A stretch of DNA of 41,773 nt, from contig NZ_JWLD01000011.1 of NCBI RefSeq assembly GCF_000813725.1, forward strand, positions 1-41,773. The letters are read 5' to 3'. The notes beneath the pieces were generated by a model, which was not told where the DNA came from, did no database searches, and saw nothing but the letters and a program-made list of their open reading frames with translations. A program made the translations under genes and the position numbers. Shown in pieces: positions 7,532-32,810 of the stretch (positions within the stretch are counted from its first letter, which is position 1; each line of letters opens with the position of its first letter). The stretch is from Leisingera sp. ANG-Vp (GTDB taxonomy: Bacteria > Pseudomonadota > Alphaproteobacteria > Rhodobacterales > Rhodobacteraceae).

Positions 7532-8284
7532 TCAGATCAGCCCCCCGTTCACATGGATAATCTGACCAGTCACATAAGCCGCATCCTTGCTTAGAAGAAA
7601 CGCGATGGCACCCGCCACGTCTTCCGGTTCCCCCAGACGGGACAACGGAATGCGGGTTTCGATTTGCCGCAAAGTTTCGGCGTCCAAACTGTCTGCGGTT
7701 CCGGCGTCCTTGCGGATATAGCCTGGCACCACGCAGTTCACGGTGATCCCGTCCTTGGCAAGTGCCAGAGACAGGCTGCGCACGGCGGTTTCCACGGCGC
7801 CTTTGGAGGCTGCAGAAGCAGGGAACTGCGGCATATCGGTGCGAAAGACATGTGCCGTAAAGCTGCTGACTCCCACGATCCGGCCGCGGCCGGAGACAGC
7901 CAGCATCGGCTGCGCGGCCTGGGCCAGCTCAAAGAAGCTTTGGCTGTTGCCCTGGAAAGCATAGGCGATGTCAGCGGGTGTCATGTCCTCCAAGGGAACA
8001 AGCAATGGAAAACCTGCATTGGCCACCAGCGCATCAAGAGCACCGAACCGCTCGCGATGCGCCTCAGCCACTGATCTGCCGGTACCGGCTTCGGCAAGAT
8101 CGCCAAGGACCGTTTCCACCTCGGCTCCCCTGGCGCGGGCCTGCTCTGCCACCGCTTGCAGCCGTCCGGCGGACGCCCGCGTGTGCAATGTCAGCCTGGC
8201 ACCAGGGGCCGCCAGCCGCAGCGCCACGGCTGCGCCAATACCGGACGCGGCGCCGGTTACAACCGCTGCGGTTCCATCGCTCAT
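7532..8284 (-). CDS. SDR-family oxidoreductase lacking the catalytic Tyr
   Basis: This 250-aa short-chain dehydrogenase/reductase has a good nucleotide-binding motif (TGAASGIG, residues 10-17), a VANAG structural motif (~87) and the Ser of the active site (VSS, ~140). At the YxxxK position the Tyr is replaced: the sequence is FPASAASK, so Ser157 stands where Tyr should be and Lys161 is kept. The C-terminal G-rich end (TGQIIHVNGG) is typical of classical SDRs. The chosen ATG at 8284 overlaps the LysR stop (ATGA); an upstream in-frame start at 8320 would run into the LysR gene and is less likely. It is the last gene of the long catabolic operon. It may be inactive, use another residue, or have an altered reaction; substrate unknown. 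Confidence 0.85.
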   Translation of the reverse strand: MSDGTAAVVTGAASGIGAAVALRLAAPGARLTLHTRASAGRLQAVAEQARARGAEVETVLGDLAEAGTGRSVAEAHRERFGALDALVANAGFPLLVPLEDMTPADIAYAFQGNSQSFFELAQAAQPMLAVSGRGRIVGVSSFTAHVFRTDMPQFPASAASKGAVETAVRSLSLALAKDGITVNCVVPGYIRKDAGTADSLDAETLRQIETRIPLSRLGEPEDVAGAIAFLLSKDAAYVTGQIIHVNGGLI

Positions 8285-9198
8285 GCCGGTATCTCCTTCC
8301 AATCCTGGCCAGTGACCCAATCACAGAAATTTCCGACTCCGCTGACCCGCCGGTGCGCCCGCGGCAGCACCAGGTAGAAGCCGGGAATCTGTTCCGGCGG
8401 CATCGCCAGCAGGGTATCTGTTCCCAGCGGCGCCACAAGGTCTCCGGCCCTGAGATCCCGCTCGGCATCGGCGCGGGAAATCAGGCCTACTCCCATGCCG
8501 GACAGCGTCGCCCGGCGCATGGTGGCGGCATCGTGAAAGGCGATCTCCGAGGCCTCTTCCGCCGCCTCCAGCCCAAAGAACTGCAGGATGTCCCGCCACA
8601 GGGAATTCTGCAGAACCGGATGCAGCAGAGTCTCGTTCAGAAGGTCGGCAGGTGTCTTGATCCGCGCCGCCACCTCCTGCGTGCAGCAGATCAGCTTGTG
8701 GTCTTTCAGCAGCAGCGTGGTGTCCAGATCGCCCCAGCCGCCGTATCCCCATTGCACCGCCACATCGATGTCATCGCGGGTGAAGTCGGGAGTGTCGACC
8801 ATAGTGGTCATCCGCAGATCGCTTTGCGGCACGAACTCGCGGAACATCTCCAGCCTCGGCAGAAGATAGCGGGTGGCGAAATAGGGCGAGACGTTCAGGG
8901 TGATCCGGTCCTTGTACTTGCGGTTGGTAACCCGGCGCACGCCTTCGGCCAGTTCCTCGAACCCGGCCTCGACATAGCGGGCCAGCAGGATTGCGGCCTC
9001 GGTCGGCTCAATCGAGCGGCCGCGGCGCTCGAACAGGGTGACCTGCAGCGTGTCCTCCAGCAGCTTGATCTGCTGGCTCACCGCCTGCGGTGTCACCAGA
9101 AGCTCATCCGCAGCGCTGCGGATCGAGCTGTGGCGCGCCGCTGCATGGAACGCCTTCAAGGCGTTCAGCGGCGGCAGTTTGAGACGGCTTTGGGTCAT
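8281..9198 (-). CDS. LysR-family transcriptional regulator (GcvA type)
   Basis: This 305-aa protein has an N-terminal winged helix-turn-helix (~9-66, with the AADELLVTPQAVSQQIKLLE recognition region) and a C-terminal periplasmic-binding-like effector domain (~95-295). The sequence style resembles the GcvA/AmpR subgroup (LNALKAFHAAARH at the start). It lies near the 3' end of the long catabolic operon, between a DAO-type flavoprotein and an SDR, so it may give feedback control of its own operon. LysR proteins usually bind interrupted dyads; the GCAAGAAWTTCTGC-like palindromes at 17894-17926 and 26181-26214 are candidate targets. The inducer is unknown, presumably a pathway intermediate. Confidence 0.92.
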   Translation of the reverse strand: MTQSRLKLPPLNALKAFHAAARHSSIRSAADELLVTPQAVSQQIKLLEDTLQVTLFERRGRSIEPTEAAILLARYVEAGFEELAEGVRRVTNRKYKDRITLNVSPYFATRYLLPRLEMFREFVPQSDLRMTTMVDTPDFTRDDIDVAVQWGYGGWGDLDTTLLLKDHKLICCTQEVAARIKTPADLLNETLLHPVLQNSLWRDILQFFGLEAAEEASEIAFHDAATMRRATLSGMGVGLISRADAERDLRAGDLVAPLGTDTLLAMPPEQIPGFYLVLPRAHRRVSGVGNFCDWVTGQDWKEIPA

Positions 9199-9217
9199 GG
9201 CATTCTGCGCAAGCGGA

Positions 9218-10420
9218 TCAGATAACAGCTTTTTCCAGGAAAGGTTCGTTTCTCACAACCCGATCATAGCCGATTTCGCTGAGGTCGAGGGCGCGGAATT
9301 CGCCATAGATGATCCATTCCGCCACCCCCCGCCCCACTGCAGGGGATTGCTGCAGGCCGTGGCCCGAGAAGCCGTTGGCGAAGATGAAGTTCCGCACTTC
9401 GTTATGGGGCCCGGCAATCACGTTGTGGTCCAGCGTGTTGAAGGCATAGTGGCCGGCCCAGAAATTCACCAGCTTGATCGCCTCAAACGCAGGCGAGCGT
9501 TCGGCCAGATCCATCCAGATGCGTTCGAATTCCTCGTGCCGCGGCTCGAAGTCGTCCCAGTCCACCGCCGGGTCCTCGGACGGCACGGTGCCGGAGAGGA
9601 AATACTTGCCCTCGGGGCGGCAGAAGCTGCCGGAGGGGTCGATCATCAGCGGCAGCCGGCCGTTGTTCACGGCAGCGGTGCCTTCGGGCGTTTGAGCGCA
9701 GTCAAAGACAAACAGCGAGCGCTTGCGCGGTTCCACTGGGATGGTGAGCCCCGCCATTGCTGCAGTTTGCGCCGCCCGCGGGCCAGAGGCGTTGACCAGT
9801 GTGCCGCAAGCGATGCTCTGGCCGGACTTCAAGGTGACACCGGTGATGCGATCGCCCTCGCGTGCGATATCCGTCACCTCATCAATCAGGTAATCCGCGC
9901 CCTGCGCCCGGGCCTTCTTGCGGAAGCCATTCATCAGACCGGTATTGGAGAACCAGCCCTCGCCCGACTGGCCATAGCTCGCCAGCTGCAGGTCATCCAC
10001 GCGCAGGTGCGGGAAGGCCCTTTTGATCTGATCCGGGTTCCACAGCACCACATCGGCGCCGAGGGATTTTTGCACCTCGTGGTTTTCGCGCAGGATCTGC
10101 ACCTGCTCGTCCGTCGAGGCGAGGAACAAATAACCGCCTTCGTGGAAGTTCAGGTCAGGCTTTTCCCCATCCACTTCCATGGTTTCGGCGAAGTTGCGGA
10201 TGAACCGGGTGCCGAACTGGCCGATCTGCACGTTCACCGGATTGGAGAACTGGTTGCGGATCGCCGAGGAACTGAGCGAGGTCGAGGCCTGGGCAAATGT
10301 CGGGTCGCGCTCGATGATCAGCACCGAGCCGTCAAAATCCGGATTTGCGGTCAAGAAATAGGCCACTGCCGAGCCGATCACTGCACCGCCGACGATCACC
10401 ACATCATAGGTGTCACGCAT
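9218..10420 (-). CDS. FAD-dependent oxidoreductase, DAO family
   Basis: This 400-aa flavoenzyme belongs to the D-amino-acid oxidase/DadA/SoxB fold family, which oxidises amines or amino acids. An N-terminal dinucleotide-binding motif is visible (VVIVGGAVIGSAVAYFL, with Ala in place of the middle Gly). The C-terminal FAD-contact motif FIFANGFSGHGLQQSPAVG is also present, a hallmark of this family. There is no signal peptide. ATG at 10420 forms TGATG with the upstream stop and has GAGG seven bases before it; a GTG at 10423 is the alternative. It sits within the HyuAB operon, suggesting oxidation of an amine or imino-acid intermediate, but the substrate cannot be read from sequence. Confidence 0.88.
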   Translation of the reverse strand: MRDTYDVVIVGGAVIGSAVAYFLTANPDFDGSVLIIERDPTFAQASTSLSSSAIRNQFSNPVNVQIGQFGTRFIRNFAETMEVDGEKPDLNFHEGGYLFLASTDEQVQILRENHEVQKSLGADVVLWNPDQIKRAFPHLRVDDLQLASYGQSGEGWFSNTGLMNGFRKKARAQGADYLIDEVTDIAREGDRITGVTLKSGQSIACGTLVNASGPRAAQTAAMAGLTIPVEPRKRSLFVFDCAQTPEGTAAVNNGRLPLMIDPSGSFCRPEGKYFLSGTVPSEDPAVDWDDFEPRHEEFERIWMDLAERSPAFEAIKLVNFWAGHYAFNTLDHNVIAGPHNEVRNFIFANGFSGHGLQQSPAVGRGVAEWIIYGEFRALDLSEIGYDRVVRNEPFLEKAVI

Positions 10421-11232
10421 CACTTGGCCTCGTCTTCCGGGTGGCCCAGCTCGCAGAACCAGCCGCCGATGTATTTGACGCCGGGTGCGTTCGGGTCAGG
10501 CGTATCCGTCTTGGCTTCCATCGCCTCGCGGAAAGGTTCGGCGCTGTCCTGCGGGTGATAGCCAAGGTGGCCCGCCTTGCTGTCGTCCACCACCTTCAGG
10601 CGGTTGTCCGAGATACCGTGGCCGATGGTGTGGCCCAGCCGCGGTGCGGTCAGGCCGCGCTCGACATATTGCACGCAGTCGCGGAACGACAGCCAGCTCC
10701 ACAGCATCCGCCGGTCGGCAGGCTCCGGGAAAGAGGAGAAGATACGCAGGCACAGGCTTTCGATGCCGAACTTGTCCCAGTAGAGGCGCGAGAGGCTTTC
10801 GACGAAGTTCTTGGAGACGCCATAGAGGCTGTCGGGGCGCACCGGGCTATCGGCGTCGATGTGCGCCTCCATTTCGTGATAGCCGATAGCATGCACGGAA
10901 GAGGCATAGATCACCCGCTTGGCACCATGTTTCCGCGCGCCTTCGTAGATGTGGTAAGAGCCGCGGATGTTGCTGTCTAGGATGGTCTCGAATTCCACCT
11001 CCAGCGGCGCGCCGCCAAAATGCACGATGGCGTCGACATCTTTGGTCAGCGCCATGACGGCCTCGTAATCGCCAAGCTCGCAGACGACGGCTTCTTCGTG
11101 CGGCTGCACATCCGCCATTTCGGCACGGTCGGAGATGCGCACATGCTCGGCCAGATGCGCGAGGCCTTTGCGCAGCTCAGAGCCAAGGCGGCCGGCTGCA
11201 CCGGTGATCAGAATACGGTTGAATGGCTTCAT
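10420..11232 (-). CDS. NAD-dependent epimerase/dehydratase family, uronate-dehydrogenase-like
   Basis: This 270-aa extended-type SDR begins with the NAD motif LITGAAGRLG and has the active-site Ser (YASSVHAIGY, ~110) and YGVSK (~137). The flow RPDSLYGVSKNFVESLSRLY, the later RIFSSFPEP and the PDPN end closely match bacterial uronate dehydrogenases (Udh), which oxidise glucuronate or galacturonate to the aldaro-lactone. The usual SSNH motif is SSVH here, so the substrate may differ. It is translationally coupled to the DAO-type gene and follows the class I aminotransferase by 11 bp. No aldarate dehydratase is visible, so a uronic-acid role is not supported by context; a related hydroxy compound or lactol may be the substrate. 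Confidence 0.85.
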   Translation of the reverse strand: MKPFNRILITGAAGRLGSELRKGLAHLAEHVRISDRAEMADVQPHEEAVVCELGDYEAVMALTKDVDAIVHFGGAPLEVEFETILDSNIRGSYHIYEGARKHGAKRVIYASSVHAIGYHEMEAHIDADSPVRPDSLYGVSKNFVESLSRLYWDKFGIESLCLRIFSSFPEPADRRMLWSWLSFRDCVQYVERGLTAPRLGHTIGHGISDNRLKVVDDSKAGHLGYHPQDSAEPFREAMEAKTDTPDPNAPGVKYIGGWFCELGHPEDEAK

Positions 11233-11243
11233 GAAATCACTCC

Positions 11244-12446
11244 TTAGGCCAGCTTGGCGACCGCATCGGCAATGCGGTTGATGGCGGCGGTCAGCACATC
11301 GCCAGACGTTGCGGTGGACAGGCGGAAAAACGGCGACAGCCCATAGGCGCTGCCGGGCACGGCAGCGACGCGGGCTTCATCCAGCAGGAATTGGGTGACC
11401 TGGGTGTCATCCTCCAGCAGCACGCCGCAGTGAGTGGTCTTGCCCATGATCCCGGCGCAGTCGATGTAGGCGTAGAAGGCGCCTTGCGGGGCATCCAGCT
11501 CCAGCCCTTCGATAGAATTGATGCCCTCCACCACGAGGTCCCTGCGGCGTTCAAAGGCTTCGCGGAAACGCGCCACTCCACCCTGCGGCCCGGTCAGCGC
11601 GGCAACCGTGGCGGCCTGAGCAATGGAGCAGGCGTTGGTGGTGGATTGGCTCTGCACCGTGGTCATGCCCTTGATCAGTTCGGCAGGCCCTGCCCCGTAG
11701 CCGATGCGCCAGCCTGTCATCGCATAGGCCTTGGAAACGCCGTTGACGATCAGTGTGCGGTCGCGCAAGCCGGGGCAGGCCTTGCCGAAGGAGACAAACT
11801 CCAGGCCGTCGAACAGGATGTGCTCGTAGATTTCGTCCGACAGGATGAGCAGGTCCGGATGATCAGCAAGCACTGCACCGAGCGCCTGCAGCTCAGCCTC
11901 GGAATAGACCGCGCCGGAGGGGTTGCCGGGCATGTTCAGGATCAGCCATTTGGACCTGGGCGTGATGGCGGCCTGCAGCGCCTCAGGCGTCAGCTTGAAC
12001 CCATCGGCACGGCAGCATTCGACCACCACCGGCTTACCGCCCAGCATCAGCGCCATGTCCGGGTAGGAGACAAAATAGGGTGCGGGCAGGATCACCTCGT
12101 CGCCCTCCTCCAGCGTTGCCATCAGCGCGTTGAAAATGATCTGCTTGGCGCCGTTGGCGACGACGATCTCTTCCGCTGCAAACTCCAGACCATTTTCGCG
12201 GCGGAACTTTTCGATCACCGCTTCCTTGGTCGCAGGCGCTCCGCCGGTGGCGGTGTAGCGGGTGTCGCCCTCCATCGCCGCGGTATGGGCGGCGGCGATA
12301 ATGTGGTCCGGAGTGTTGAAGTCCGGCTCGCCCAGGCCGAGGTCGGCAACCTCCACCCCTTGCGCCACCAGCGCCTTGGCTGCCTGGCTGACCGCCATTG
12401 AGGGCGAGGGTTTCACTTGCGCCATTCGTTTTGCCAGCATGGTCAT
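11244..12446 (-). CDS. Class I/II PLP-dependent aminotransferase (aspartate-aminotransferase-like)
   Basis: This 400-aa fold-type I aminotransferase is of the AspC/AatA Ib type common in alphaproteobacteria. Visible features are the N-terminal MAVSQAAKALVAQGVEVADL segment, the NMPGNPSGAVYS cofactor region (~168), the SDEIYEHILF loop (~200) and the PLP lysine in NGVSKAYAMTGWR (~237). The C-terminal Arg region (FFRLSTATS) binds the alpha-carboxylate. The ATGA overlap with the hydantoinase B stop ties it to the HyuAB operon. Its probable job is to remove the amino group from an amino acid released by ring opening, passing it to 2-oxoglutarate or oxaloacetate. It could equally be a general aspartate or aromatic aminotransferase. 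Confidence 0.93.
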   Translation of the reverse strand: MTMLAKRMAQVKPSPSMAVSQAAKALVAQGVEVADLGLGEPDFNTPDHIIAAAHTAAMEGDTRYTATGGAPATKEAVIEKFRRENGLEFAAEEIVVANGAKQIIFNALMATLEEGDEVILPAPYFVSYPDMALMLGGKPVVVECCRADGFKLTPEALQAAITPRSKWLILNMPGNPSGAVYSEAELQALGAVLADHPDLLILSDEIYEHILFDGLEFVSFGKACPGLRDRTLIVNGVSKAYAMTGWRIGYGAGPAELIKGMTTVQSQSTTNACSIAQAATVAALTGPQGGVARFREAFERRRDLVVEGINSIEGLELDAPQGAFYAYIDCAGIMGKTTHCGVLLEDDTQVTQFLLDEARVAAVPGSAYGLSPFFRLSTATSGDVLTAAINRIADAVAKLA

Positions 12447-14059
12447 TTGTCTTCCGTCACATATCCGGCCAGCAGGTCGGCGGCGCGCTCTTCGTCGCTG
12501 CGCTCCTCAGCAGGGCCAAAGCCGCCACCGCCGGGCGCTTTTAAAATCAACCGCTTGCCTGCTGGCACGTGCTGCCAGCCCTTGGGGCGCAGCTGCGTGC
12601 CATCCTCCAAGGCCACCACTCCGGACGCGCCCGCGCCGCCGCCGTCGCGGCCGCGGGCCGGGTGGTTCACCCGGTCGAACATTGCGGAAAAGTCGAACTC
12701 ATGGCCTTCGGCCGGTGCAATCTCGATGACCTGACCCAGGCCGCCGCGCAGCCGGCCCTCGCCGCCGCTGTCCGGGCGCAGTTCCTTGCGCCAGACCACG
12801 ATCGGGCCGGTGTGCTCGGTCGCCTCGATCGGCATCGTGTGCACGCCCGAAGGAAAGGCCGTGGCCGACAGCCCGTCCAGCCCCGGCCGTGCGCCGGTTC
12901 CGCCGGAGTTGAACATCAGCACCTCTGCGCGGCGCCCCTCCTGCCCGGCCGCGGGGCGGACGGAGATATGGATGTTCCAAAGTGCAGCGGCGCCTTCGGC
13001 CATGATCTGGCCCGGCAACGCCTTGGCCAGCGCACCCAGCACCAGATCTGGCACCATGTGCCCCATCACGTGACGCAGAGAGACCGGCGCCGGGCGTTCG
13101 GCGTTCAGGATGTTGACCGGCGAGGAGACCGTGAAGGGCTCCAGTGAGGCGGAGTTGTTGGGGATATCCGGCGCCACCACGCATTTCACTGCATAGCAGG
13201 CATAGGCCTTGGAATAAATCAGCGGGCAGTTGATGCCCCATTTGCTGGCGCCATCGGTGCCGGTGAAATCGACATTCACCTCGCCGTCCCGAACCGAGAG
13301 CGTTGTGGCCAGCTTCACCGACTCGTCATAGCCATCAACGGTCATACTGTTCTGCCAACTGCCCTTGGGCAGGCCCGCGATACGCTCCAAAGTAGCTGCG
13401 CGGGAGCGGGAGAAGATGAACTCCCCCAGCTCAGCCAGGCTGTCCATGCCGGTCTCAGCCATCATATCGATCAGACGCCGGTGGCCGACCTCATTGCAAG
13501 CCGCCAGCGAGTAGAAATCGCCCACCACCTGGTTCGGCTCGCGCACGTTGCTGCGCAGGATGCTGATCAGGTCCCGGTTCACCTTGCCGCGGTCGGCGAA
13601 CTTCATGATCGGGATCAGGATGCCTTCCTCATAGACCGACTTGCCATCGGCGCCGAAACCGCGGCCGCCGACATCCACCACATGAGCGGTGCAGGCAAAG
13701 AAGGCAACCAGCCTGCCGTCCTTGAACGAAGGCGCCACCATGGTGATGTCGTGCAAATGACCTGTGCCCTTCCACGGGTCGTTGGTCACATAGCAGTCGC
13801 CCTCATACATCTCCTCACGCGGGATTTCCGCCAGGAAATGCAGTACGGCCTCGGCCATCGTGTTCACATGCCCGGGCGTGCCGGTGACGGCCTGGGCCAG
13901 CATCAGGCCTTCGGGATTGAAGACCCCTGCAGAGAGATCACCCGCTTCGCGGACCGAGGTCGAAAACGCCGTGCGCAGCAGCGTCAGCGCCTGCTCTTCG
14001 ACCACCGAGATCAGCCGGTTCCACATCACCTGCATGCGGATTTCTGAAATGCCAGCCAT
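12443..14059 (-). CDS. hyuB: Hydantoinase B/oxoprolinase family subunit
   Basis: This 538-aa protein is the partner subunit of ATP-dependent amide-ring hydrolases: N-methylhydantoinase, 5-oxoprolinase, and the caprolactamase beta-type subunit. Family motifs include DLSAGVFNPEGLMLAQ near the N-terminus, YVTNDPWKGTGHLHD (~88-102), and the C-terminal GGGGFGPAEER tail that is standard for HyuB. The gene lies 3 bp after hyuA, with a 4-bp overlap into the aminotransferase. Together with HyuA it would hydrolyse a lactam or hydantoin bond at the cost of ATP. The separate A and B subunits are the bacterial arrangement, whereas eukaryotic 5-oxoprolinase is a fusion. Ring specificity is not deducible from sequence alone. 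Confidence 0.95.
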   Translation of the reverse strand: MAGISEIRMQVMWNRLISVVEEQALTLLRTAFSTSVREAGDLSAGVFNPEGLMLAQAVTGTPGHVNTMAEAVLHFLAEIPREEMYEGDCYVTNDPWKGTGHLHDITMVAPSFKDGRLVAFFACTAHVVDVGGRGFGADGKSVYEEGILIPIMKFADRGKVNRDLISILRSNVREPNQVVGDFYSLAACNEVGHRRLIDMMAETGMDSLAELGEFIFSRSRAATLERIAGLPKGSWQNSMTVDGYDESVKLATTLSVRDGEVNVDFTGTDGASKWGINCPLIYSKAYACYAVKCVVAPDIPNNSASLEPFTVSSPVNILNAERPAPVSLRHVMGHMVPDLVLGALAKALPGQIMAEGAAALWNIHISVRPAAGQEGRRAEVLMFNSGGTGARPGLDGLSATAFPSGVHTMPIEATEHTGPIVVWRKELRPDSGGEGRLRGGLGQVIEIAPAEGHEFDFSAMFDRVNHPARGRDGGGAGASGVVALEDGTQLRPKGWQHVPAGKRLILKAPGGGGFGPAEERSDEERAADLLAGYVTEDK

Positions 14060-14062
14060 GGA

Positions 14063-17829: not shown

Positions 17830-17893
17830 GTTCGGACCTGTCAGAATGTCGGTTTCTTGATTGAGGCTAGCTGCCGCTTGCGCAGGTGTCGGT

Positions 17894-17926
17894 GCAGAAA
17901 ATCTTGGGACTGCCAAGAAATTCTGC
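17894..17926. promoter_or_regulatory. Interrupted palindrome before the ThDP-hyuAB genes
   Basis: The left arm 17894-17907 (GCAGAAAATCTTGG) and right arm 17913-17926 (CCAAGAAATTCTGC) are inverted repeats with 12 of 14 positions matched, around a 5-base spacer. It lies in the only sizeable gap (17830-17936) within this part of the operon, about 65 bases before the ThDP gene start. It resembles the element at 26181-26214 upstream of the semialdehyde dehydrogenase gene. It could be a LysR-type operator or a hairpin ending the racemase transcript; there is no U-tract after it on the minus strand. Confidence 0.5.
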
Positions 17927-17936
17927 CCCCGCCGGA

Positions 17937-22272: not shown

Positions 22273-22303
22273 AGTGCCCTCCCCGTTCGTCCCGGCTTGC
22301 AAA

Positions 22304-22331: not shown

Positions 22332-22344
22332 CAGAAAACCGGGT

Positions 22345-23166
22345 TTATTCGGCAGTCATGGCCTCGACGGCAGCGTCATAAAGGCGCTGAACGTTGCCGG
22401 TTGCGACCTGTTCCTCCAGGTAGATGTCGAGCACCTGCACGTCCTCCAGCGGCACCGACTTGCGCAGGCCGAATGCGATGCCCTGTTTGGCAATCGCAGG
22501 CTGCGGCAGCACCTGCGCGGCCCAGTCAGGGTTCTGCAGGATGGTGATGCGGTGAATATCGCTGTCGGTGGCAAAGACATCGGCGCGCTTGGAGATGATC
22601 GCCAGGCGGCCCTCATTGGCCCCGTCCAGGCGGATGATCTTGGCATGTTTCACCTGCGGCGTAATCGACAGGTCGCCCGCGGCGCCCTGCATCACGGCGA
22701 TGGTGATGCCTTCCTTGTCGAAGTCCGCCAGCGACGTCATATCCGGCGTGATCTTGGGGTTGCGGGTGTCGTGCAGCAGGCCGATCTCATAGCTCCAGAT
22801 CGGCATCGAGTAGTTCACCGCCAGCGCCCGCTGCGGCTTGCGGTTCAGGGCCGAGGAGATGTCCCATTTGCCAGCCTGCAGGCCAGCAACCATATTGCCC
22901 CAGGTGGTTTCGACCACTTCAACCTCAACGTCGATGGAGCTGGCAAATCCATCCATCACATCCAGGAAATAGCCGGACCAGTCACCGGTTTTGGGGTCAC
23001 GCACCAAGAGCGGCGGCGCCTCGGCCACGCCCACGCGCAGGGTGCCGCGTTCCTGCACGTCAGCCCACAGGTTTTCCTTGTCCTGCGCTGCAGCCGGCTG
23101 CATCAGCCCGGCAACGGCCAGAGCCGCAACAGCGGCAAAAGTCTTCATATTGGTCATAAAGGACAT
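22345..23166 (-). CDS. Amino-acid ABC transporter substrate-binding protein (family 3)
   Basis: This 273-aa periplasmic solute-binding protein has a Sec signal peptide (~1-28, MTNMKTFAAVAALAVAGLMQ, cleavage near AAA-QD). The mature part is SBP family 3 (GTLRVGVAEAPPLL, then GYFLDVMDGFA). An Arg is retained in SALNRKPQRALAVNYS, where family members bind the substrate carboxylate. ATG 23166 has an excellent GGGAGGA site about 5 bases upstream; the frame open to 23262 is not needed. It determines what the island imports: likely a compound with an alpha-carboxylate, though the exact ligand cannot be told. It is the first gene of the importer set. Confidence 0.95.
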   Translation of the reverse strand: MSFMTNMKTFAAVAALAVAGLMQPAAAQDKENLWADVQERGTLRVGVAEAPPLLVRDPKTGDWSGYFLDVMDGFASSIDVEVEVVETTWGNMVAGLQAGKWDISSALNRKPQRALAVNYSMPIWSYEIGLLHDTRNPKITPDMTSLADFDKEGITIAVMQGAAGDLSITPQVKHAKIIRLDGANEGRLAIISKRADVFATDSDIHRITILQNPDWAAQVLPQPAIAKQGIAFGLRKSVPLEDVQVLDIYLEEQVATGNVQRLYDAAVEAMTAE

Positions 23167-23283
23167 GGTTTTCCTCCCTTGGGGTCCCTGCGCCGGGCTG
23201 GCAGATGCCCCTGCTCCGGCCTGGCGAAAGCCTGGCCGGCGAAGGGCCCGCCAAAACATCAAGAAATCCCGTACTTTGGTAAG

Positions 23284-24693: not shown

Positions 24694-24696
24694 GAC

Positions 24697-26124: not shown

Positions 26125-26180
26125 GCTGCCCTCACTGATCTGTCTGCGGTGAGTATGGGCAACAGCAGATGGCGGGGCCT

Positions 26181-26214
26181 GCAAGAATTTCTGCGGAATG
26201 CCAACAAATGCTTG
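26181..26214. promoter_or_regulatory. Interrupted palindrome upstream of the semialdehyde dehydrogenase gene
   Basis: GCAAGAATTTCTGC (26181-26194) and CCAACAAATGCTTG (26201-26214) are separated by 6 bases, about 57 bases before the ATG at 26124. The first half is close to the reverse complement of the left arm at 17894-17907. The second shares CCAA-N-AAAT-N-CT with the right arm at 17913-17926. The pair looks like a shared operator, perhaps for one of the two LysR regulators of the island. Confidence 0.45.
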
Positions 26215-26248
26215 ATCCGACAGAAACCCGGCGCGGCGGAATGAACAA

Positions 26249-26273
26249 GGGCGCGGCCGTGCGGACCGCGCCC
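26249..26273 (-). terminator. Stem-loop terminator after the class V aminotransferase gene
   Basis: GGGCGCGG (26249-26256) pairs with CCGCGCCC (26266-26273) around a 9-base loop. On the minus strand it is followed by TTGTTC, a weak U-rich tail. It lies 28 bases after the class V aminotransferase stop and separates the 26.3-32.8 kb gene set from the 7.5-26.1 kb set. Confidence 0.65.
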
Positions 26274-26301
26274 TCATCCTGAATGCTGTCCCGGGGCCGG
26301 G

Positions 26302-27561
26302 TTAGCCGTCCTGTCCCAGCTCTTTCACCGCTGCCAGCATCTTGGCGATTTCGGCCTCGGTGTTGTAGTGGCAGAAGGATATCCGGATGCAGTCCGGCAG
26401 CCCCAGCGGGTCCAGCACATTGCCGGAATAATGGTCCGCCTTGCGGGTGTGGGTGCGGATGCCTTGGGCGTTGAGGATCTCGACCACCTCTTCCGAGGCG
26501 ATGCCGTCCACCACAATCGACACCAGCCCTTCGCGCGCCGGATTGTCTGCTCCGGCCAGAATGGTGACATGCGCCATGTCCCGCAGGCCCGGCAGGTTGC
26601 CGGTGCCGTTGATGGCGGCATTGGTCAGATGGGTCTCATAGGCGTGGATGGCGCGGCCTGCGGCTTCGATCCTGCCGCGGCGGGTGGTCTCGGAAGACAC
26701 CTCGCCGCCGAGCCATTCGAAATACTCCACCACATCCGACAGGGTGGCATAAGAGCCGGTGTCGCGGGTGCCGAACTCCCAGCCGGTGGCCGGGGCGCCG
26801 ATCAGCATGTCGTGGGGCAAGGCGCTGAGGCGGTCCGAGATCCAGGCTATGCCGTAGCCATGGCGCGAAAACACCTTGTAGGGTGAGACTGCATAGCCGT
26901 CGATATCATAGGCAGCCATGTCCAGCTGGCCGTGGGCGGCGTGCTGGATGCCGTCAACGATGATCAGGCAGTCCGGCGCCACCGCGCGGATGGCCTTGGA
27001 GATCGCCTCCACATCCATACCCATGCCTGTGACTGGCGAGGCGTGCAGGATAGTGGCCACCGCCACATCCGGGGTCATCAGCGCGGTGTAGTCTTCTGCC
27101 GTGACCAGACCGGTTTCGTTGTTATGGGCAACGTTCACATACTCCAGCCCGGCGATCTCCGCCCAGCGGCGGGCGGCGCTGCGGGTGGCCGGGTGCTCGA
27201 TCGAAGAGCCGATCACCTTGGCGCCCTTGGGAGCGTTCACACAGGCGGTGCGGATCATCCGGAACAGCAGCTCCGTGCCGCTTTCGCCGGCAAAAAACTG
27301 GCCGGACTGGGCGTTCATGAACTCGGCCAGGTCTGCCTTGGCCTTGTTGATTGTGGTCTGGGTAGCTTGGCCCGCCGGATTGATGCGGCCCGGGTTGTCG
27401 GGGATGGCGGCGTAGAAGGCCGAAGTCTCCACCACAGATTTCAGCGTCAGCGCACCGCCTGCGTTTTCAAAGAAGATGCGCTCGCCCTGGAACGGGCAGC
27501 TGTCCACATGGGCAAAGCGGGTGCGGATGGCATTGATGAGGGCGGGATTGTCCTGGATCAT
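26302..27561 (-). CDS. Class V aminotransferase-fold PLP enzyme (cysteine-desulfurase-like)
   Basis: This 419-aa fold-type I PLP enzyme of the class V group (NifS/SufS/kynureninase-like) has a probable PLP lysine in AVSPYKVFSRHGYG (~227). The cofactor Asp is in IIVDGIQHAAHGQ (~200) and SSIEHPATRS near 118. The C-terminal domain ends with the CIRISFCHYNTEAEI segment typical of this group. It lacks an obvious flexible Cys-containing desulfurase loop, so sulphur mobilisation is unlikely; a transaminase, lyase or epimerase-type role is more likely. It is the last gene of the upper sub-operon, 22 bp after the D-glutamate-cyclase-like gene and followed by a terminator. The AGGA site is about 10 bases before the ATG. 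Confidence 0.88.
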   Translation of the reverse strand: MIQDNPALINAIRTRFAHVDSCPFQGERIFFENAGGALTLKSVVETSAFYAAIPDNPGRINPAGQATQTTINKAKADLAEFMNAQSGQFFAGESGTELLFRMIRTACVNAPKGAKVIGSSIEHPATRSAARRWAEIAGLEYVNVAHNNETGLVTAEDYTALMTPDVAVATILHASPVTGMGMDVEAISKAIRAVAPDCLIIVDGIQHAAHGQLDMAAYDIDGYAVSPYKVFSRHGYGIAWISDRLSALPHDMLIGAPATGWEFGTRDTGSYATLSDVVEYFEWLGGEVSSETTRRGRIEAAGRAIHAYETHLTNAAINGTGNLPGLRDMAHVTILAGADNPAREGLVSIVVDGIASEEVVEILNAQGIRTHTRKADHYSGNVLDPLGLPDCIRISFCHYNTEAEIAKMLAAVKELGQDG

Positions 27562-27583
27562 GTCATTGAAATCCTGTCAGAAG

Positions 27584-28597
27584 TCAGAGCGCGCGGCTCA
27601 CGATAGTACGGCACAGTTCAGCCACCGCAAGATGGCTTTGCCGGGGGAAGCCATCGACGCTGTCGTCGACGATCCCGTGGGTGGAATTGATGAGGCCATT
27701 GGCCACCATAGTGTCTAGAAGCAGCGCCTCGCGTTCGGGGGTGTGCAGCAGCTTGGCGTTGTCCGCGCGGGCAGCCATGGCCGCAGCAATCGCGGTGCAG
27801 CCCCAATTGGAACAGGCGGCCGTGACCAGCACGTCGCAGGAGGTAACCGCGCCGATACCGCCTCCGCAGCCGCATTGGCAAGTATCGCCGTAAGGCACAT
27901 ACGCCTTCACGTGATCCGCCACCTTGCCCATGCCGATCTCATTGCCGCCGTCGCCGACCGCGACCACGGGAATACCGCGGGCCAAAGCCTCGTCGAACAG
28001 AAAGTCCACCCGCGCCCGGCCCATGCCGTAGTCGATGCCCTTCATCGAGTGGTAGACGCCGTGCTCATTGCGCCCGACCCGCTCGGTTGAGAACAAGAGG
28101 TCGGGTGTCAGCGCGTCCAGCATCTGCACGGCCTGCGCCCGGCCGGCTTCGTCTTCGGTGGCATAGGGCAGCATCACGATGGTGGCGAGGCTCTTGTCGG
28201 CGCGCGCAATGGCTGCCTGCTCCAGCGTGACCGGGAAAAGCCCCGCCGCCTGGCAGGTGCTGCGGATCGCGGGCAAGAGCGTCTCCTCGCAGAGCATCAC
28301 GCAGGTCGCGTTGCGCGCCAGCACCAGCGCCCGGGCAACCGCCGCGGCGCCGGAGGGGCCGTCGTTCTCGCCCAGATCAGGTGTGATCCAGGCGCGCGAC
28401 ACCGAGCCGGTGGTCAGAATGACGGTACCGCCTTCGGGCACCGCCATCAGCGCATCCGCCGCGGCGCCCACCAGCGCGCCGCCCTGCAGTTCGCGGGCGG
28501 CCTCGTACAGATGCTCGACACCGCGCTCGCCCATGTCGATATTCACCAGCTGGTCCAGACGGTTGTCGAGCCGGGTGATCAGGTCCTTGTCCGCCAT
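27584..28597 (-). CDS. D-glutamate-cyclase-like protein (DUF4392)
   Basis: This 337-aa protein matches the C-terminal domain family of mammalian D-glutamate cyclase (DGLUCY), formerly DUF4392. The hallmark is VAVGDGGNEIGMGKV (~211-223), preceded by FSTERVGRNEHGVYHSMKG (~170) and followed by a Cys-rich YGDTCQCGCGGGIGAV (~240) and TAACSNWGC. Known family members interconvert D-glutamate and 5-oxo-D-proline. In this island the same compound class is a possible substrate of HyuAB, which makes the pairing notable. It lies between two PLP enzymes. No signal peptide, so cytoplasmic. The family is recognised from the motif; the actual reaction here is inference, and another cyclic lactam is possible. 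Confidence 0.85.
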   Translation of the reverse strand: MADKDLITRLDNRLDQLVNIDMGERGVEHLYEAARELQGGALVGAAADALMAVPEGGTVILTTGSVSRAWITPDLGENDGPSGAAAVARALVLARNATCVMLCEETLLPAIRSTCQAAGLFPVTLEQAAIARADKSLATIVMLPYATEDEAGRAQAVQMLDALTPDLLFSTERVGRNEHGVYHSMKGIDYGMGRARVDFLFDEALARGIPVVAVGDGGNEIGMGKVADHVKAYVPYGDTCQCGCGGGIGAVTSCDVLVTAACSNWGCTAIAAAMAARADNAKLLHTPEREALLLDTMVANGLINSTHGIVDDSVDGFPRQSHLAVAELCRTIVSRAL

Positions 28598-28629
28598 TCA
28601 CGTATTTCCATATTGGTTGGCGCGGCGCA

Positions 28630-28648
28630 GCCCGGCTTGCAGCCGGGC
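28630..28648. repeat. 19-nt hairpin GCCCGGCT-TGC-AGCCGGGC
   Basis: A perfect 8-bp stem with a 3-base loop in the 75-bp gap between the SelA-like and D-glutamate-cyclase-like genes. The same size and core (GCCCGGC-N5-GCCGGGC) recur at 36403-36421, also in a gap between co-directional genes. There is no T-run, so it is not a classical terminator; it may set relative expression or be a small dispersed repeat. Confidence 0.55.
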
Positions 28649-28672
28649 GGTGCGTATCATTGAAAAGATCAT

Positions 28673-29935
28673 TTACCCCTCCCCGAACAGCAGGTTTGTG
28701 AACCACGCCGCATCGTCCAGATGCGCCGCCGTCTCTTTCATTGCTGTAACCAAGCAGCCTGCCACCTCAGCAGCGCCGCCTGCCCGCGCAACCGCACCGG
28801 AGGTCGGCTTCAGACGGATCGAGACCCGGCCTCCGGGCTGGCCATGCGTGTTCACGGTGACAATGCCCTTGTCCCGCAGCATCAGCATGCCAATGGCCGC
28901 GGTGACCTCAGCTGGAACCCTGGCAGTTTCAGCTTTGCCCGCCATTTCCAGCACAGTCTCCATCGCGTCCTGCTCGTCAATCTTCGGCCCCAGCGCCGAT
29001 CGGCTCACGCACTGCGTGCCAAGTGCTTCCTCCAGCGCGGCGGCCAGATCCTGGCCGTCCTGCGCCTCTTGGATCAGCAGATCCGGGGTGAAGCCCTGCA
29101 GGCTGCGCATCGCACCAACTGCGACCGGCGCACGCGCCTCCATGCCCAGTTCGCTGGCCTTGGCCTGCACCGGCACCAGCGCGGCGGGATCACCGCACAG
29201 CACACCGGCCCGCGGGCCCGACAGCCCCGCCTTGTCGGCATTAGTGACGACCAGGTCGGCCCCGAACGACAGCGATGTGCCGCCGCCATGCAAGACGGGG
29301 CGGAACCGCGCACCATAGGCGTCATCCATAAAGACAACGCAGCCCGCTGCCTTGCCCGAGGCTGCCGCGGCGCGGATCAGCTCGTCAGACAGCATTGCCA
29401 GTTCCGAGGTCACCGGCGTGATCACCAGCAGCGCCGGCGTATCTGACGCCAGCGCTGTTTCAACGCCGTCAAGATCATGGACTTCCTTCACCGGCACATT
29501 GGCCAGCTTGGCGCCGCGCATCACTGAAGCATGGCTGCGGTCGCCCGCCGGCACCAGTGACAGCACAGGCTTGCCGCCCGCATGGGCCAGAACGGTGGCC
29601 ACGATACCCGCGCTGGTGCGGTTGACCACCGCTGCCGCCTCACCTCCCTGACCGCCCAGATGGGTTATGGCCGCCTGGCGCAGCTCCTCGCCAAACAGAC
29701 CCGGACCAACCCACTCTTCGCATAAGACGCTCAGGTCTTCGGGCGAGGCCGGATAAAAGCGCAGATTGCCTGTGCAGATAGCAATCTTTTCAATCCCTTG
29801 CCGCGCCACGAATTCCGCTGCCACCCGGCCGGCACGGGCCAAGCGGCGCACTTCATCCGCCGACCCCTGCAGCAAGACCCCCCGGGCGTAGCCAACACCC
29901 GGGTCAATCATGTTGCCAAAACGGTCCGTGCTCAT
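28673..29935 (-). CDS. SelA/DgaE-like PLP-dependent enzyme
   Basis: This 420-aa fold-type I PLP enzyme resembles the selenocysteine synthase-like group (SelA, D-glucosaminate-6-phosphate ammonia-lyase DgaE). The probable PLP lysine is in GADLVVTNADKAGLSGPRAG (~230), corresponding to the SGDK-LLGGPQAG motif of SelA. An upstream FMDDAYGAR (~205) supplies the cofactor Asp. The start at ATG 29935 (MSTDRFGNMI) overlaps the aldehyde dehydrogenase stop as ATGA; the longer frame to 29965 adds an unlikely His-rich leader. No selenium genes are nearby, so a true SelA role is unlikely; beta-elimination, ammonia-lyase or racemisation chemistry on an amino acid is more likely. Confidence 0.82.
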   Translation of the reverse strand: MSTDRFGNMIDPGVGYARGVLLQGSADEVRRLARAGRVAAEFVARQGIEKIAICTGNLRFYPASPEDLSVLCEEWVGPGLFGEELRQAAITHLGGQGGEAAAVVNRTSAGIVATVLAHAGGKPVLSLVPAGDRSHASVMRGAKLANVPVKEVHDLDGVETALASDTPALLVITPVTSELAMLSDELIRAAAASGKAAGCVVFMDDAYGARFRPVLHGGGTSLSFGADLVVTNADKAGLSGPRAGVLCGDPAALVPVQAKASELGMEARAPVAVGAMRSLQGFTPDLLIQEAQDGQDLAAALEEALGTQCVSRSALGPKIDEQDAMETVLEMAGKAETARVPAEVTAAIGMLMLRDKGIVTVNTHGQPGGRVSIRLKPTSGAVARAGGAAEVAGCLVTAMKETAAHLDDAAWFTNLLFGEG

Positions 29936-31422
29936 GCACCTGCCTCTATATTTATGGTGATGCATTTGCGGTAGGTATAGGCTTCCAGCGCGCCCTCGAT
30001 CGAGTATTCGCTGCCCATGCCCGATTGCTTGGTACCGCCATAAGACATGCCCGGGATCTGGCCACCGCCCTGGTTCACCTGGATCCAGCCCGCGTCAATG
30101 GCGCGGGTCAGGCGGGTAATGCGGCTGACGTCATGGGTGAACAGGAAGGCAGCCAGCCCGTAATGGGTGTCATTGGCCATCTCGATGACTTCGGCTTCCG
30201 TTTCAAACGGAATTGCGACCATGACAGGGCCGAACACCTCTTCACGGGCAATCCGCCAGCTGTTGCCGACGCCGGTTATGATGGTCGGGTTCGGACAGAA
30301 GCCTGCCGGATCCTCCGCCGGGGTTTCGCCGATCAGGAACTCGGCCCCCTGCGCCTCGGCTTCCGCCACAAAGCCGCGGATTTCGCCGTAGCGCTCTGCG
30401 TTCACAACCGCGCCCATATCCACATCCGGGTCCAGCGCATCGCCCACTTTCAGGGCCGCAGATTTCTCCGCGACCTTGGGCATCAGCACGTCCCAGATGT
30501 CCTTGTGCACAAACAGGCGGGAGCCGGCGGTGCAGCTCTGCCCCTGGCGGGCAAAGCGCATGGCATTGGCCACCTGCTGGGCGGTGGCGTCCAGACGGCC
30601 GTTGTCGATGGCATCCGGGAAGACGATGGTGGGCGATTTGCCGCCCAGCTCCAGCGTCAGCTTGGCAATGCGGTCAGCGGTGGCCTTGCCAATCAATTTG
30701 CCCACTTCCGACGAACCGGTGAAAGACACCTTGTCGATGCCGGGATGGCTGGCCAGCGCCGCGCCGGCTTCCTCACCCAGCCCCGTTACCACGTTGAACA
30801 CGCCCGGAGGGAACAGCCCATCCGCCAGCTCAGCCAGCTTCAGGATCGCCAGCGGCGCGTCTTCGGCCGGTTTGAGGACCAGGCAGTTGCCGGTGGCCAG
30901 CGCCATTGAGATCTTGACGCAGCCCAGCTGCAGCGGCGAGTTCCAAGGAATGATAGATCCCACCACACCGTGAGGTTCCCGGGTGGAATAGCTGAGCAAC
31001 CCGGGTCCCAGGGGCAAGGTCTCGCCCTTCTGCTCCACCGCCACGCCGCCATAGTATTTCAGCACACCCGCCGCGCCCATCGCCTCGCCGCGCGACTGTG
31101 TCTTGATCGCGTTGCCGCTCTCAGCCGCCAGCACCCGCGCCACTTCCTCGGCGTTCTCCTCCAGCCGGCGCCCGAGTTCCGCAAGCAGCTTGCCCCGCTC
31201 GGCAGCCGCAAGAGAGCGCCACGCCGGCAGGGCGGCACGGGCGGCCCGCGCGGCCAAATCGACCTCGCGTGCCGTGCCGCGTCCAACCTCGCATATTGCC
31301 GCGCGGCGGGAAGGGTTCTCGATCACCAGCGTCCGGCCGTCCTCCGGCCAGTGCCAGGCGCCGTTGATATAGCTACCTGCAAGGCCCGCTTGGGGCAGCT
31401 TCGGTTCCAGCAATTCCGCCAT
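29932..31422 (-). CDS. NAD(P)-dependent aldehyde dehydrogenase
   Basis: This 496-aa aldehyde dehydrogenase has catalytic Cys297 in ARQGQSCTAGS, general base Glu263 in LTLELGGKSP, and PWNSPLQLGCVK near 158. KQSGMGSEYSIEGALEAYT sits near the C-terminus. The overall pattern resembles betaine-aldehyde or amino-aldehyde dehydrogenases. A strong GGAGGG site lies about 4 bases before the ATG. It follows the class III aminotransferase by 11 bp, a standard pair in which the transaminase makes a semialdehyde and this enzyme oxidises it to the acid. Substrate chain length is not predictable. Confidence 0.93.
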   Translation of the reverse strand: MAELLEPKLPQAGLAGSYINGAWHWPEDGRTLVIENPSRRAAICEVGRGTAREVDLAARAARAALPAWRSLAAAERGKLLAELGRRLEENAEEVARVLAAESGNAIKTQSRGEAMGAAGVLKYYGGVAVEQKGETLPLGPGLLSYSTREPHGVVGSIIPWNSPLQLGCVKISMALATGNCLVLKPAEDAPLAILKLAELADGLFPPGVFNVVTGLGEEAGAALASHPGIDKVSFTGSSEVGKLIGKATADRIAKLTLELGGKSPTIVFPDAIDNGRLDATAQQVANAMRFARQGQSCTAGSRLFVHKDIWDVLMPKVAEKSAALKVGDALDPDVDMGAVVNAERYGEIRGFVAEAEAQGAEFLIGETPAEDPAGFCPNPTIITGVGNSWRIAREEVFGPVMVAIPFETEAEVIEMANDTHYGLAAFLFTHDVSRITRLTRAIDAGWIQVNQGGGQIPGMSYGGTKQSGMGSEYSIEGALEAYTYRKCITINIEAGA

Positions 31423-31433
31423 CTATCCCTCCC

Positions 31434-32810
31434 TTACATCTTTGCCTTGACCACGGCCCAGGCATCGTCCAGCGCGCCCTTGAACCGCTCAGTGGCAATG
31501 TCGATCTCATCCTCATTGATGATCAGCGGCGGCATGAAGCTCATCCGGTCGCCAATCGCCCGCAGGTACAGCCCGCGGTCATGGGCAAAATTCTGCACCA
31601 GCTCGCCCACCTTCCAGGACGGGTCAAAGGGCTCGCGCGCCTTTGCATCTTTCATCAGCTCAAAGCCGCAGAACAGCCCGACGCCGCGCACCTCAGCCAC
31701 CAGCGGATGATCCGCCATTGCATGGCAACGGCTCAGGAACAGGTCGCTCACCTTGCGCACATGACCAACCAGATCGATCTCATCATAGATGTCCAGCGCC
31801 TCCAGCGACACCGCTGCGCCAACGGGATGGCCCGCATAGGTATAGCCGTGGCCAAAGACGCCGACCTCGTCGGAGTTCTTCATCATGTCGGCATACATGC
31901 CGTCCTTGAACATCAAGGCCGAGACCGGGAAGAAAGCCGCCGACAGCGCCTTGGCGCAGGTCACCATGTCCGGCTTCATGCCCCAGGTCTCCGACCCCCA
32001 CATGTTGCCGGTGCGCCCGAAACCGCAAACCACCTCATCGGCCAGCAGTTTGATATCGTACTTGCGCAGCACCGCCTGCATCTCGCGCCAGTAGCCTTCC
32101 GGCGGCATCAGCGCGCCGCCGCCCGAGATTGCCGGCTCGGCAAAGAAGGCCGCAATGGTTTCCGGGCCTTCCGACAAGATCAGCTGTTCAAATTTCGCCG
32201 CCATCCGGGCCGAGAACTCCTCTTCGCTCTCACCGTCGATATGGAAACGGTAGTAGTTCGGCAGCTCGGTGTGCTTGAACTCCGGCAGCGGCAGGCCGAA
32301 CTTGGCATGCATATGCGGCTGGCCGGACAAGGATACGGTGGCCACGGTATTGCCGTGATAACCGCGCACCCGGCCAATCACCTTACGCCGCTCCGGCTCG
32401 CCGCGGGCGGTGTTGGTGTACCACAGCAATTTGATCGCGGTGTCGTTTGCCTCAGAGCCCGAACATTGGAACATTGCCCGGGTCATGCCATTCGGCGCCA
32501 TCGCCGTCAGGCGTTCACCCAGTTCTGCCACCTTCGGGTGCGAGCGGTTGTAAAAGGTCGGTGCAAAAGGCAGCGTGTTCATCTGCCGCACCGCGGCGCT
32601 GGCCAGGCGCTCGTTGTGATAACCCAAGGACACGCACCCCAGGCCCGAGAAACCATCGATGATCTCGCGCCCATCGCTGTCGTAGATGAACACGCCCTTG
32701 CCATGGGTGATCATCGTGGGCCCGTTTTCGGCATGCTGGCGCAGGTTTGACTGCGGGTGCACATGGTGGGCTTTGTCCTGCTCGATCGAGCGTTTGGCAT
32801 CGGCGTTCAT
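31434..32810 (-). CDS. Class III (omega) aminotransferase
   Basis: This 458-aa PLP enzyme of the class III omega-transaminase group uses terminal amines such as beta-alanine, GABA or taurine as amino donors. Features: GKGVFIYDSDGREIIDGFSG near 37-56, FQCSGSEANDTAIK (~112-125), the YHGNT loop (~150), LADEVVCGFGRTG (~253-265) and the PLP lysine in TCAKALSAAF (~284). I chose ATG 32810 because GGAG lies six bases upstream; a TTG four codons earlier (32822) is the alternative. It is the first gene of the minus-strand island, transcribed away from the LysR gene at 32917. Paired with the next gene it would convert an omega-amino acid to a dicarboxylic or similar acid. Confidence 0.93.
   Translation of the reverse strand: MNADAKRSIEQDKAHHVHPQSNLRQHAENGPTMITHGKGVFIYDSDGREIIDGFSGLGCVSLGYHNERLASAAVRQMNTLPFAPTFYNRSHPKVAELGERLTAMAPNGMTRAMFQCSGSEANDTAIKLLWYTNTARGEPERRKVIGRVRGYHGNTVATVSLSGQPHMHAKFGLPLPEFKHTELPNYYRFHIDGESEEEFSARMAAKFEQLILSEGPETIAAFFAEPAISGGGALMPPEGYWREMQAVLRKYDIKLLADEVVCGFGRTGNMWGSETWGMKPDMVTCAKALSAAFFPVSALMFKDGMYADMMKNSDEVGVFGHGYTYAGHPVGAAVSLEALDIYDEIDLVGHVRKVSDLFLSRCHAMADHPLVAEVRGVGLFCGFELMKDAKAREPFDPSWKVGELVQNFAHDRGLYLRAIGDRMSFMPPLIINEDEIDIATERFKGALDDAWAVVKAKM

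Follow-up and report, generated by a model that had tools for sequence, protein, structure and literature searches.

A run of 22 co-directional genes occupies positions 7532-32810 on the minus strand of a 41,773-nucleotide stretch from Leisingera sp. ANG-Vp (contig NZ_JWLD01000011.1; hereafter the window). An earlier sequence-only reading took this run for one catabolic island built around the ring-opening pair HyuA/HyuB (HyuAB). Comparison with other genomes shows that it consists of two catabolic modules lying side by side: module A, formed by the five genes at 26302-32810 together with the adjoining genes at 32917-40438, and module B, the 17 genes at 7532-26124. The constant partners of HyuAB in module B are a gene for a uronate dehydrogenase (Udh)-like enzyme and a flavoprotein of the DAO family, rather than the racemase that the earlier reading had given a main step. 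Our overall interpretation, which joins the two-module arrangement to the reaction steps set out below and is put forward tentatively, is that module B may import an amino-acid-like compound and degrade it through a lactam.

The minus strand carries all 22 genes, and their families are the ones originally named (perm1, 20841-21512, being grouped with perm2). The spacing had been described as mostly four-base overlaps or gaps under 25 bp, and 16 of the 21 junctions are indeed tight, six being overlaps of 4 bp and ten being gaps of 1-22 bp; the remaining five are gaps of 72-177 bp (start codons taken from the sequence for this count: thdp 17829, atp 22272, sdrD 8284). The widest gap, 177 bp at 26125-26301, separates at5 (26302-27561) from aldh2 (24697-26124) and coincides with the point at which the comparison splits the island. 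The five module A genes were found in none of 85 HyuAB-module loci (tblastn; 40-60% identity, at least half coverage). These loci comprise the best 80 of 590 confirmed HyuB-alignment matches on genome contigs and five plasmid records; because the best 80 matches were taken, the sample leans to close relatives. Among all the loci compared in this work, L097 and L214 are the same DNA (same Udh, zero tree distance), as are L029 and L077.

Module A, for its part, is conserved without HyuAB. In Alisedimentitalea scapharcae, at3-aldh1-selA-glucm-at5 are 77-89% identical to the window genes and lie beside LysR and MttB/GcvT-type genes, the counterparts of window positions 32917-40438, and no HyuAB was found in the 41-kb stretch around them. 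Seven uncut close module A loci with at least 77% identity per gene were counted (L013, L048, L164, L167, L168, L169 and L170), the distant or cut copies L047, L162, L163, L171, L172 and L173 being left out. All seven keep the five genes, at5 included, in one block with a homologue of lysR1, and each fetched stretch also contains a GcvT-type gene; HyuAB was found within the fetched stretches of none. Genome G151 of the same genus carries module A but no close HyuB, its best match being 63% identical and on a different contig. The sister genome G157 carries all 17 module B genes at 83-97% identity, followed, after about 7 kb of other DNA, by at5 (82% covered) and a contig-cut glucm, with a further module A copy on a different contig. 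Its contigs end inside glucm (L162, 9.7-11.9 kb) and at3 (L163, 11.0-16.2 kb), which suggests that the assembly was interrupted by two module A copies, of which one lies near module B.

A core of HyuA-HyuB-(aminotransferase)-Udh-like-DAO recurs across alpha-, beta- and gamma-Proteobacteria, providing the synteny beyond this strain that had been proposed beforehand as a check. With HyuB (12443-14059; PF02538) as the query for the 80 named loci, tblastn counts over all 85 loci gave the Udh-like gene in 74, DAO in 60, the aminotransferase in 46, the thiamine diphosphate (ThDP) enzyme in 43, the short-chain dehydrogenase/reductase (SDR) genes sdrC and sdrB in 34 and 30, an HpaI-type aldolase in 15, a GlcD-type flavoprotein in nine, aldh2 in nine, SSADH in seven and the racemase in one. 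The plasmid records (five of 153 matches; Paracoccus, Shinella and Pseudochrobactrum) have the order ThDP-HyuA-HyuB-aminotransferase-Udh-like-DAO-LysR. The 18 control loci, each about 19-20 kb around a HyuB paralogue of 49-53% identity from the same genus, contained no Udh-like gene, at1, ThDP enzyme or sdrB/sdrC, with a distant DAO (27-29%) in four and a distant aldehyde dehydrogenase (35-37%) in 16. A HyuB tree (quick method, 83 rows) shows three main groups: one of 41 rows, with the ThDP gene upstream of hyuA in 33; one of 18 rows from Burkholderia, Pseudomonas and Rhizobiaceae, with the ThDP gene downstream of dao in ten (support 86, not starred); and one of 22 mostly Rhodobacterales rows without the ThDP gene, eight of which have the HpaI-type aldolase.

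The most frequent of these partners is encoded at 10420-11232, a gene that had been counted as one of four SDR-fold enzymes; it is an extended SDR, but more precisely a uronate dehydrogenase homologue, matching solved relatives with E values of 4e-65 to 4e-77. In the Udh-like cluster of the module loci, residues E77, S111, H113, Y136, K140, S165 and R174 (A. tumefaciens numbering) are present in 70 of 70 enzymes; S75 is kept in only five and N112 in six. The window enzyme has Pro and Val at these two positions, in contrast to the Ser and Asn of the three solved relatives shown. We take Tyr136, Lys140 and Ser111 to be catalytic and Arg174 to bind the substrate carboxylate. The enzyme resembles Udh in sequence and catalytic residues, Tyr136, Lys140, Ser111 and Arg174 all being in place, but with Ser75 and Asn112 gone its predicted substrate pocket does not, and we do not class it as a uronate dehydrogenase. 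A search of the family found Udh homologues in 74 of 149 genomes, and 40 of these places were compared for residues and neighbours. S75 was lost in all 16 homologues near HyuB or a close DAO gene and N112 in 15 of them, whereas among the 24 away from both, N112 was kept in 21 and S75 in 20. Members of the family can readily be recognized, and tested, by this residue signature (N112 to V or I with R174 retained) together with the proximity of Udh to HyuAB.

The second constant partner, the DAO-family flavoprotein (9218-10423; PF01266), is closest in sequence, of the solved structures, to 1y56_B, an L-proline dehydrogenase chain from Pyrococcus horikoshii. That chain is also the top Foldseek match of its AlphaFold model (mean pLDDT 91, 33 sequences), with a TM of 0.86 and 26% identity; next in rank come glycine and sarcosine oxidases and dimethylglycine dehydrogenase. 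A DAO domain combined with an L-proline dehydrogenase subunit as nearest fold places the protein with DAO-type L-proline/secondary-amine dehydrogenases, and the matches favour, rather than prove, a secondary or cyclic amine as its substrate.

Reading reactions from homology and context into the observed gene content, gene order, residues and folds, we infer the following route for module B. The DAO flavoprotein would oxidize a carboxylated cyclic secondary amine to a cyclic imine, hydrating to a hemiaminal, which the Udh-like enzyme would oxidize to a lactam, as true Udh turns a uronate hemiacetal into a lactone. HyuA/HyuB would then open the stable lactam with ATP to yield an amino dicarboxylate, and at1 would take off the amino group. 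The ThDP enzyme would decarboxylate the resulting 2-oxo acid and aldh2 (SSADH in Pseudomonas) would oxidize the aldehyde, or, in other genomes, an HpaI-type aldolase would cleave the 2-oxo acid; finally, the flavin dehydrogenase encoded by fad may oxidize a D-2-hydroxy acid product. The role of Arg174 would persist along this route, since in uronates and imino acids alike the carboxylate carbon joins the oxidized carbon via the ring heteroatom. Both the ThDP and the aldolase ends would process a 2-oxo acid of the kind that an aminotransferase makes, and the aldolase would need a 4-hydroxyl. Because the presence of an aldolase and of the GlcD-type enzyme points to a C4 hydroxyl on the oxo acid, our leading guess for the substrate is a hydroxyproline- or pipecolate-like (hydroxypipecolate-like) imino acid. 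As a speculative worked example, hydroxyproline might be converted through hydroxypyrroline carboxylate, 4-hydroxy-5-oxoproline and 4-hydroxyglutamate to 4-hydroxy-2-oxoglutarate, which might end as malate by way of malate semialdehyde, or as pyruvate and glyoxylate. Ectoine, creatinine, oxindole/auxin, homarine, Amadori and iminosugar substrates were set aside for lack of evidence. Import, ATP-driven ring opening, nitrogen removal and aldehyde oxidation, originally postulated for all 22 genes, suit the 17-gene half at 7532-26124 and not the whole run.

In its widest form the proposal is doubtful: a branch of the Udh family turned to, or ancestrally used for, hemiaminal oxidation of cyclic imino acids to lactams would be coupled to their ATP-dependent reopening by HyuAB. 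Ring-shaped amino acids would then be broken down through an undescribed ‘lactam shunt’ that is widespread in the alpha-, beta- and gamma-Proteobacteria and finishes with either decarboxylation by the ThDP enzyme or aldol cleavage of the HpaI type. The route, if true, would give a function to a conserved operon core that bears generic family names and would account for the repeated pairing of a Udh homologue with HyuAB; naming the module genes ‘uronate dehydrogenase’ or ‘hydantoinase’ by automatic annotation would then mislead. No pathway with this gene set was found among the open-access papers listed in the literature search, which is weak evidence of its absence; the initial statement likewise knew of no characterized pathway with this set.

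Several observations weigh against this interpretation. DAO was not found in 25 of the 85 loci, uncut Mesorhizobium loci among them, the Udh-like gene was not found in 11, and 29 have neither the ThDP gene nor the HpaI-type aldolase; contig ends truncate some of the 85, and several nearly duplicate one another. In two loci of the genus with HyuB at 63-64% identity (L165 and L166), HyuA is present and no Udh-like or DAO match was found in 20 kb. The partners also occur without HyuAB: six of 30 ThDP loci (L033, L036, L039, L051, L052 and L055) have a Udh-like or DAO homologue and no HyuAB, and ten of the 40 Udh loci (L203, L210-L213, L215, L222 and L228-L230) have the changed S75/N112 pocket or a close DAO and no HyuB within about 6 kb on each side. 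Six Pseudomonas module Udh-like enzymes retain N112. In a Udh tree (26 of the 70 module enzymes with 16 module-type, three orphan and 21 N112-type enzymes and the A. tumefaciens fragment; unrooted, so that the order of origin is not settled), the N112 enzymes, including the characterized one of A. tumefaciens, form essentially one clan; the S75/N112 contrast may therefore go back to a single change or very few, and shared descent makes its Fisher p values (3e-7, 2e-7) look stronger than they are. What S75, N112 and R174 do in true Udh is presumed, and a look-up of these residue names in uronate dehydrogenase papers found none of them. The DAO flavoprotein is only 26% identical to 1y56_B, with glycine and sarcosine oxidases close behind in score, and the proposed pathway leaves the roles of sdrB and sdrC unexplained. 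Finally, simple cyclic imines can open non-enzymatically and then be oxidized by ordinary aldehyde dehydrogenases, so that for these a lactam route is not needed.

Among known systems, the oxidative uronate pathway uses uronate dehydrogenase, a lactonase, dehydratases and ketoglutarate-semialdehyde dehydrogenase. Module B is like it in having a Udh-family enzyme, which would oxidize the ring carbon beside the ring heteroatom, and an aldehyde dehydrogenase resembling the last of these, but S75 and N112 are replaced and the ring would be opened by HyuAB at the cost of ATP; the module B genes scanned gave no match to a uronate or aldarate dehydratase family. The caprolactam route of Pseudomonas jessenii reportedly runs from lactam opening by HyuAB-family proteins to transamination and oxidation, the order also proposed for module B. 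Module B differs from it in its Udh-like, DAO and ThDP enzymes and its aminotransferase of the aspartate aminotransferase type, the class III aminotransferase sitting in module A. Caprolactam degradation is known in this organism (PMC6061476). The 5-oxoprolinases and N-methylhydantoinases share the HyuA/HyuB domains, but module B HyuAB is often partnered by the Udh-like and DAO proteins. In animals, hydroxyproline is converted to 4-hydroxyglutamate and then to 4-hydroxy-2-oxoglutarate. Module B would share 4-hydroxyglutamate, an aspartate aminotransferase-type enzyme and retro-aldol cleavage with that route; it would replace the pyrroline-5-carboxylate (P5C) dehydrogenase step with a lactam and its ATP-driven hydrolysis, and would use an HpaI-type aldolase or a ThDP decarboxylase. 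HOG aldolase is the subject of PMC3188589.

The same core enzymes could act in another order, resembling opine breakdown. An imported lactam with an N-linked side chain would be opened first by HyuAB, and the DAO flavoprotein would then oxidatively cleave the secondary-amine C-N bond. Of the two products, at1 would take the amino acid and the Udh-like enzyme would oxidize the aldehyde acid. Agropinic acid breakdown (AgaFG, AgaE), encoded on Ti plasmids, would be the precedent for this order, with a HyuAB-type delactamase and a DAO-type flavoprotein; no Udh-like gene is known there, whereas module B has one. The recurrence of HyuAB with DAO (60 of 85 loci), the many secondary-amine oxidases among the DAO fold neighbours and the Arg174 through which the Udh-like enzyme probably binds a carboxylate are all consistent with such an order. 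We nevertheless consider it unlikely: uncut loci exist with HyuAB, at1 and Udh and no DAO, the loss of S75 and N112 speaks against a sugar-like aldehyde, and the precedent is uncertain, the term ‘agropinic acid’ not having been found in the open-access papers listed by the searches.

It is also quite unlikely that HyuAB, the Udh-like enzyme and DAO alone make up the pathway, with the ThDP enzyme, aldehyde dehydrogenase, flavin dehydrogenase and racemase as general neighbours without a fixed role. The ThDP enzyme (16159-17829) belongs to the PRK08199 subfamily (NF006052, 795 bits, over the cut-off of 539). Of 149 genomes of the family, 92 have a match to it, with HyuA and HyuB adjoining in three of the 30 ThDP loci examined and HyuA 9 kb away in one more, which, with the 29 HyuAB loci lacking both terminal enzymes, fits such a patchwork. 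Against it, two HyuB clades have the ThDP gene immediately next to hyuA or dao, and its other neighbour there is often aldh2, SSADH or fad; fad directly precedes the ThDP gene in nine operon runs, and in Pseudomonas the gene is followed by that of an SSADH-type aldehyde dehydrogenase (type assigned from one scanned). Apart from the 29, the 85 loci divide into 41 with the ThDP gene only, 13 with the aldolase only and two with both. The two aldolases scanned are nearest to 4-hydroxy-2-oxoheptanedioate and 2-dehydro-3-deoxyglucarate aldolases, under the cut-offs. The ThDP gene was rejected as a pathway marker, its close relatives sitting in many contexts, and the racemase (17937-18668; Asp/Glu type, NF005679, 306 bits, over the cut-off of 231) was rejected as a core step and is an accessory, close homologues having been found in one of the 85 loci, besides the window and G157. 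Since the racemase is rare and close ThDP homologues stand in other contexts, the hyuA-ThDP-racemase trio, suggested as the unit of comparison, is not diagnostic.

The target of HyuAB could, instead of a lactam, be a hydantoin or N-methylhydantoin, or the pair could work as an ATP-dependent carboxylase. The adjacent pair has the superfamily domains Hydant_A_N, Hydantoinase_A and Hydantoinase_B, from which ring-opening activity is predicted; the solved proteins nearest to HyuA (14063-16162; ATP-dependent family, PF05378/PF01968/PF19278) are 7hk5, annotated as N-methylhydantoinase, and 6yra, a 5-oxoprolinase, and acetophenone carboxylase subunits also match it. The nearest curated model of HyuA is however caprolactamase (464 bits), before acetophenone carboxylase (252 bits), and no carbamoylase appears among the families (up to 25) listed for the window genes or the scanned neighbours. 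These points make hydantoin hydrolysis or carboxylation improbable. Identity with caprolactamase CapAB itself was rejected, HyuA and HyuB scoring 464 and 160 bits against NCBIfam equivalog cut-offs of 1000. Least probable by far is a single pathway of all 22 genes for one cyclic amino-acid derivative. The shared strand and the tight spacing could speak for it, as could the G157 contig on which at5 and the contig-cut glucm are separated from module B by about 7 kb, but the separate occurrence of the modules led us to reject it.

The lactam route proposed for module B draws on several further genes of this half. The aminotransferase at1 (11244-12446; class I/II, PF00155) scores 557 of 617 bits with the aspartate transaminase model NF004769. 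Aldh2 is nearest to ketoglutarate-semialdehyde dehydrogenase, but that equivalog identity was rejected at 519 of 770 bits (NF042993). Fad (23284-24693; PF01565/PF02913) is the GlcD-type flavin dehydrogenase. Import would fall to an ABC importer with permeases perm2 (20164-20829) and perm1 and the ATPase atp (21517-22272), perm2 and atp being Ehu-like, together with a solute-binding protein of family 3 (22345-23166; PF00497). Its identity as the ectoine/hydroxyectoine importer EhuABCD was rejected, the scores lying below the TIGR cut-offs (EhuA 293/345, EhuB 66/191 and EhuC, the best match of perm2, 152/197 bits). An importer of amino-acid type, counting only the Aap, Liv and window ATPase types, occurs in 33 of 86 loci, the window included: 14 Aap-type (our own label), 14 Liv-type and five of the window ATPase type. 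The remaining genes of the module are sdrC (18679-19428; PF13561/PF00106), sdrB (19430-20167; PF00106), a GcvA-like LysR regulator, lysR2 (8281-9198; PF00126/PF03466; NF008352 at 241.9 bits, under the cut-off of 288), and sdrD (7532-8284; PF13561/PF00106), which is 88% identical in G157.

Module A is a conserved unit separate from HyuAB, linked to MttB and GcvT-type demethylases and reaching right to at least 40438. On the minus strand it comprises, besides the class V aminotransferase-like at5 (PF00266), glucm (27584-28597), a SelA/MJ0158-like pyridoxal phosphate protein (28673-29935; TIGR03576, 169 of 304 bits; 2aeu, E 4e-33), the aldehyde dehydrogenase gene aldh1 (29932-31422; PF00171) and the class III aminotransferase gene at3 (31434-32810; PF00202; NF004767, over its cut-off). 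Beyond these lie the divergent LysR regulator lysR1 (32917-33843, plus strand; PF00126/PF03466) and, again on the minus strand, two DAO+GcvT proteins of the dimethylglycine-dehydrogenase type (33949-36363 and 36505-38922; PF01266+PF01571) and an MttB-family methyltransferase gene without an in-frame stop (38927-40438; PF06253). A homologue of the DAO+GcvT gene at 33949-36363 lies in the fetched stretch of all seven uncut close loci. The MttB-family gene was found in five, being cut by the stretch end in two, and the remaining two stretches end before its position; in L168 and L170 the GcvT/MttB genes lie beyond at5 and not beyond LysR. With its open frame, the MttB-family gene scores below the cut-off for the pyrrolysine trimethylamine methyltransferase (TIGR02369, 291 of 525 bits). 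A match to the Rfam pyrrolysine insertion element PYLIS_3 lies inside this stop-free gene at 39322-39424 on the minus strand (41.8 bits against a gathering score of 38).

Glucm contains the GLUCM-like C-terminal domain of D-glutamate cyclase (PF14336, E 2e-68, 231 bits, cut-off 27.9), from which such an activity would be predicted. The gene is scarce: a close copy is present in three of 149 family genomes, the window's own counted, and a distant copy in one, with eight of 292 genomes in the order and three of 21 in the genus. Once the island is split, module A can be examined in its own right alongside the MttB/GcvT genes, and our guess is that the set is a candidate route by which a methylated (quaternary) amine would be demethylated to an omega-amino acid. 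MttB, the two DAO-GcvT proteins, LysR and module A co-occur in several Rhodobacterales genomes.

Plasmids from soybean rhizobia and one from Paraburkholderia caffeinilytica carry an operon of oxidoreductase, aldehyde dehydrogenase, GLUCM, SelA-like and GLUCM genes with an adjoining LysR gene. The aldehyde dehydrogenase-GLUCM-SelA-like-GLUCM operons lie at 12881-22048 in L014, 13100-22039 in L015 and 11788-18999 in L016, with a polar-amino-acid importer nearby, and the oxidoreductase is 3-hydroxyisobutyrate-dehydrogenase-like in L014 and L016. To the left of the 22-gene run in the window, the plus strand encodes a chemoreceptor with HAMP and MCP signal domains (4724-7084) and an HlyD-family secretion protein (2161-3339).

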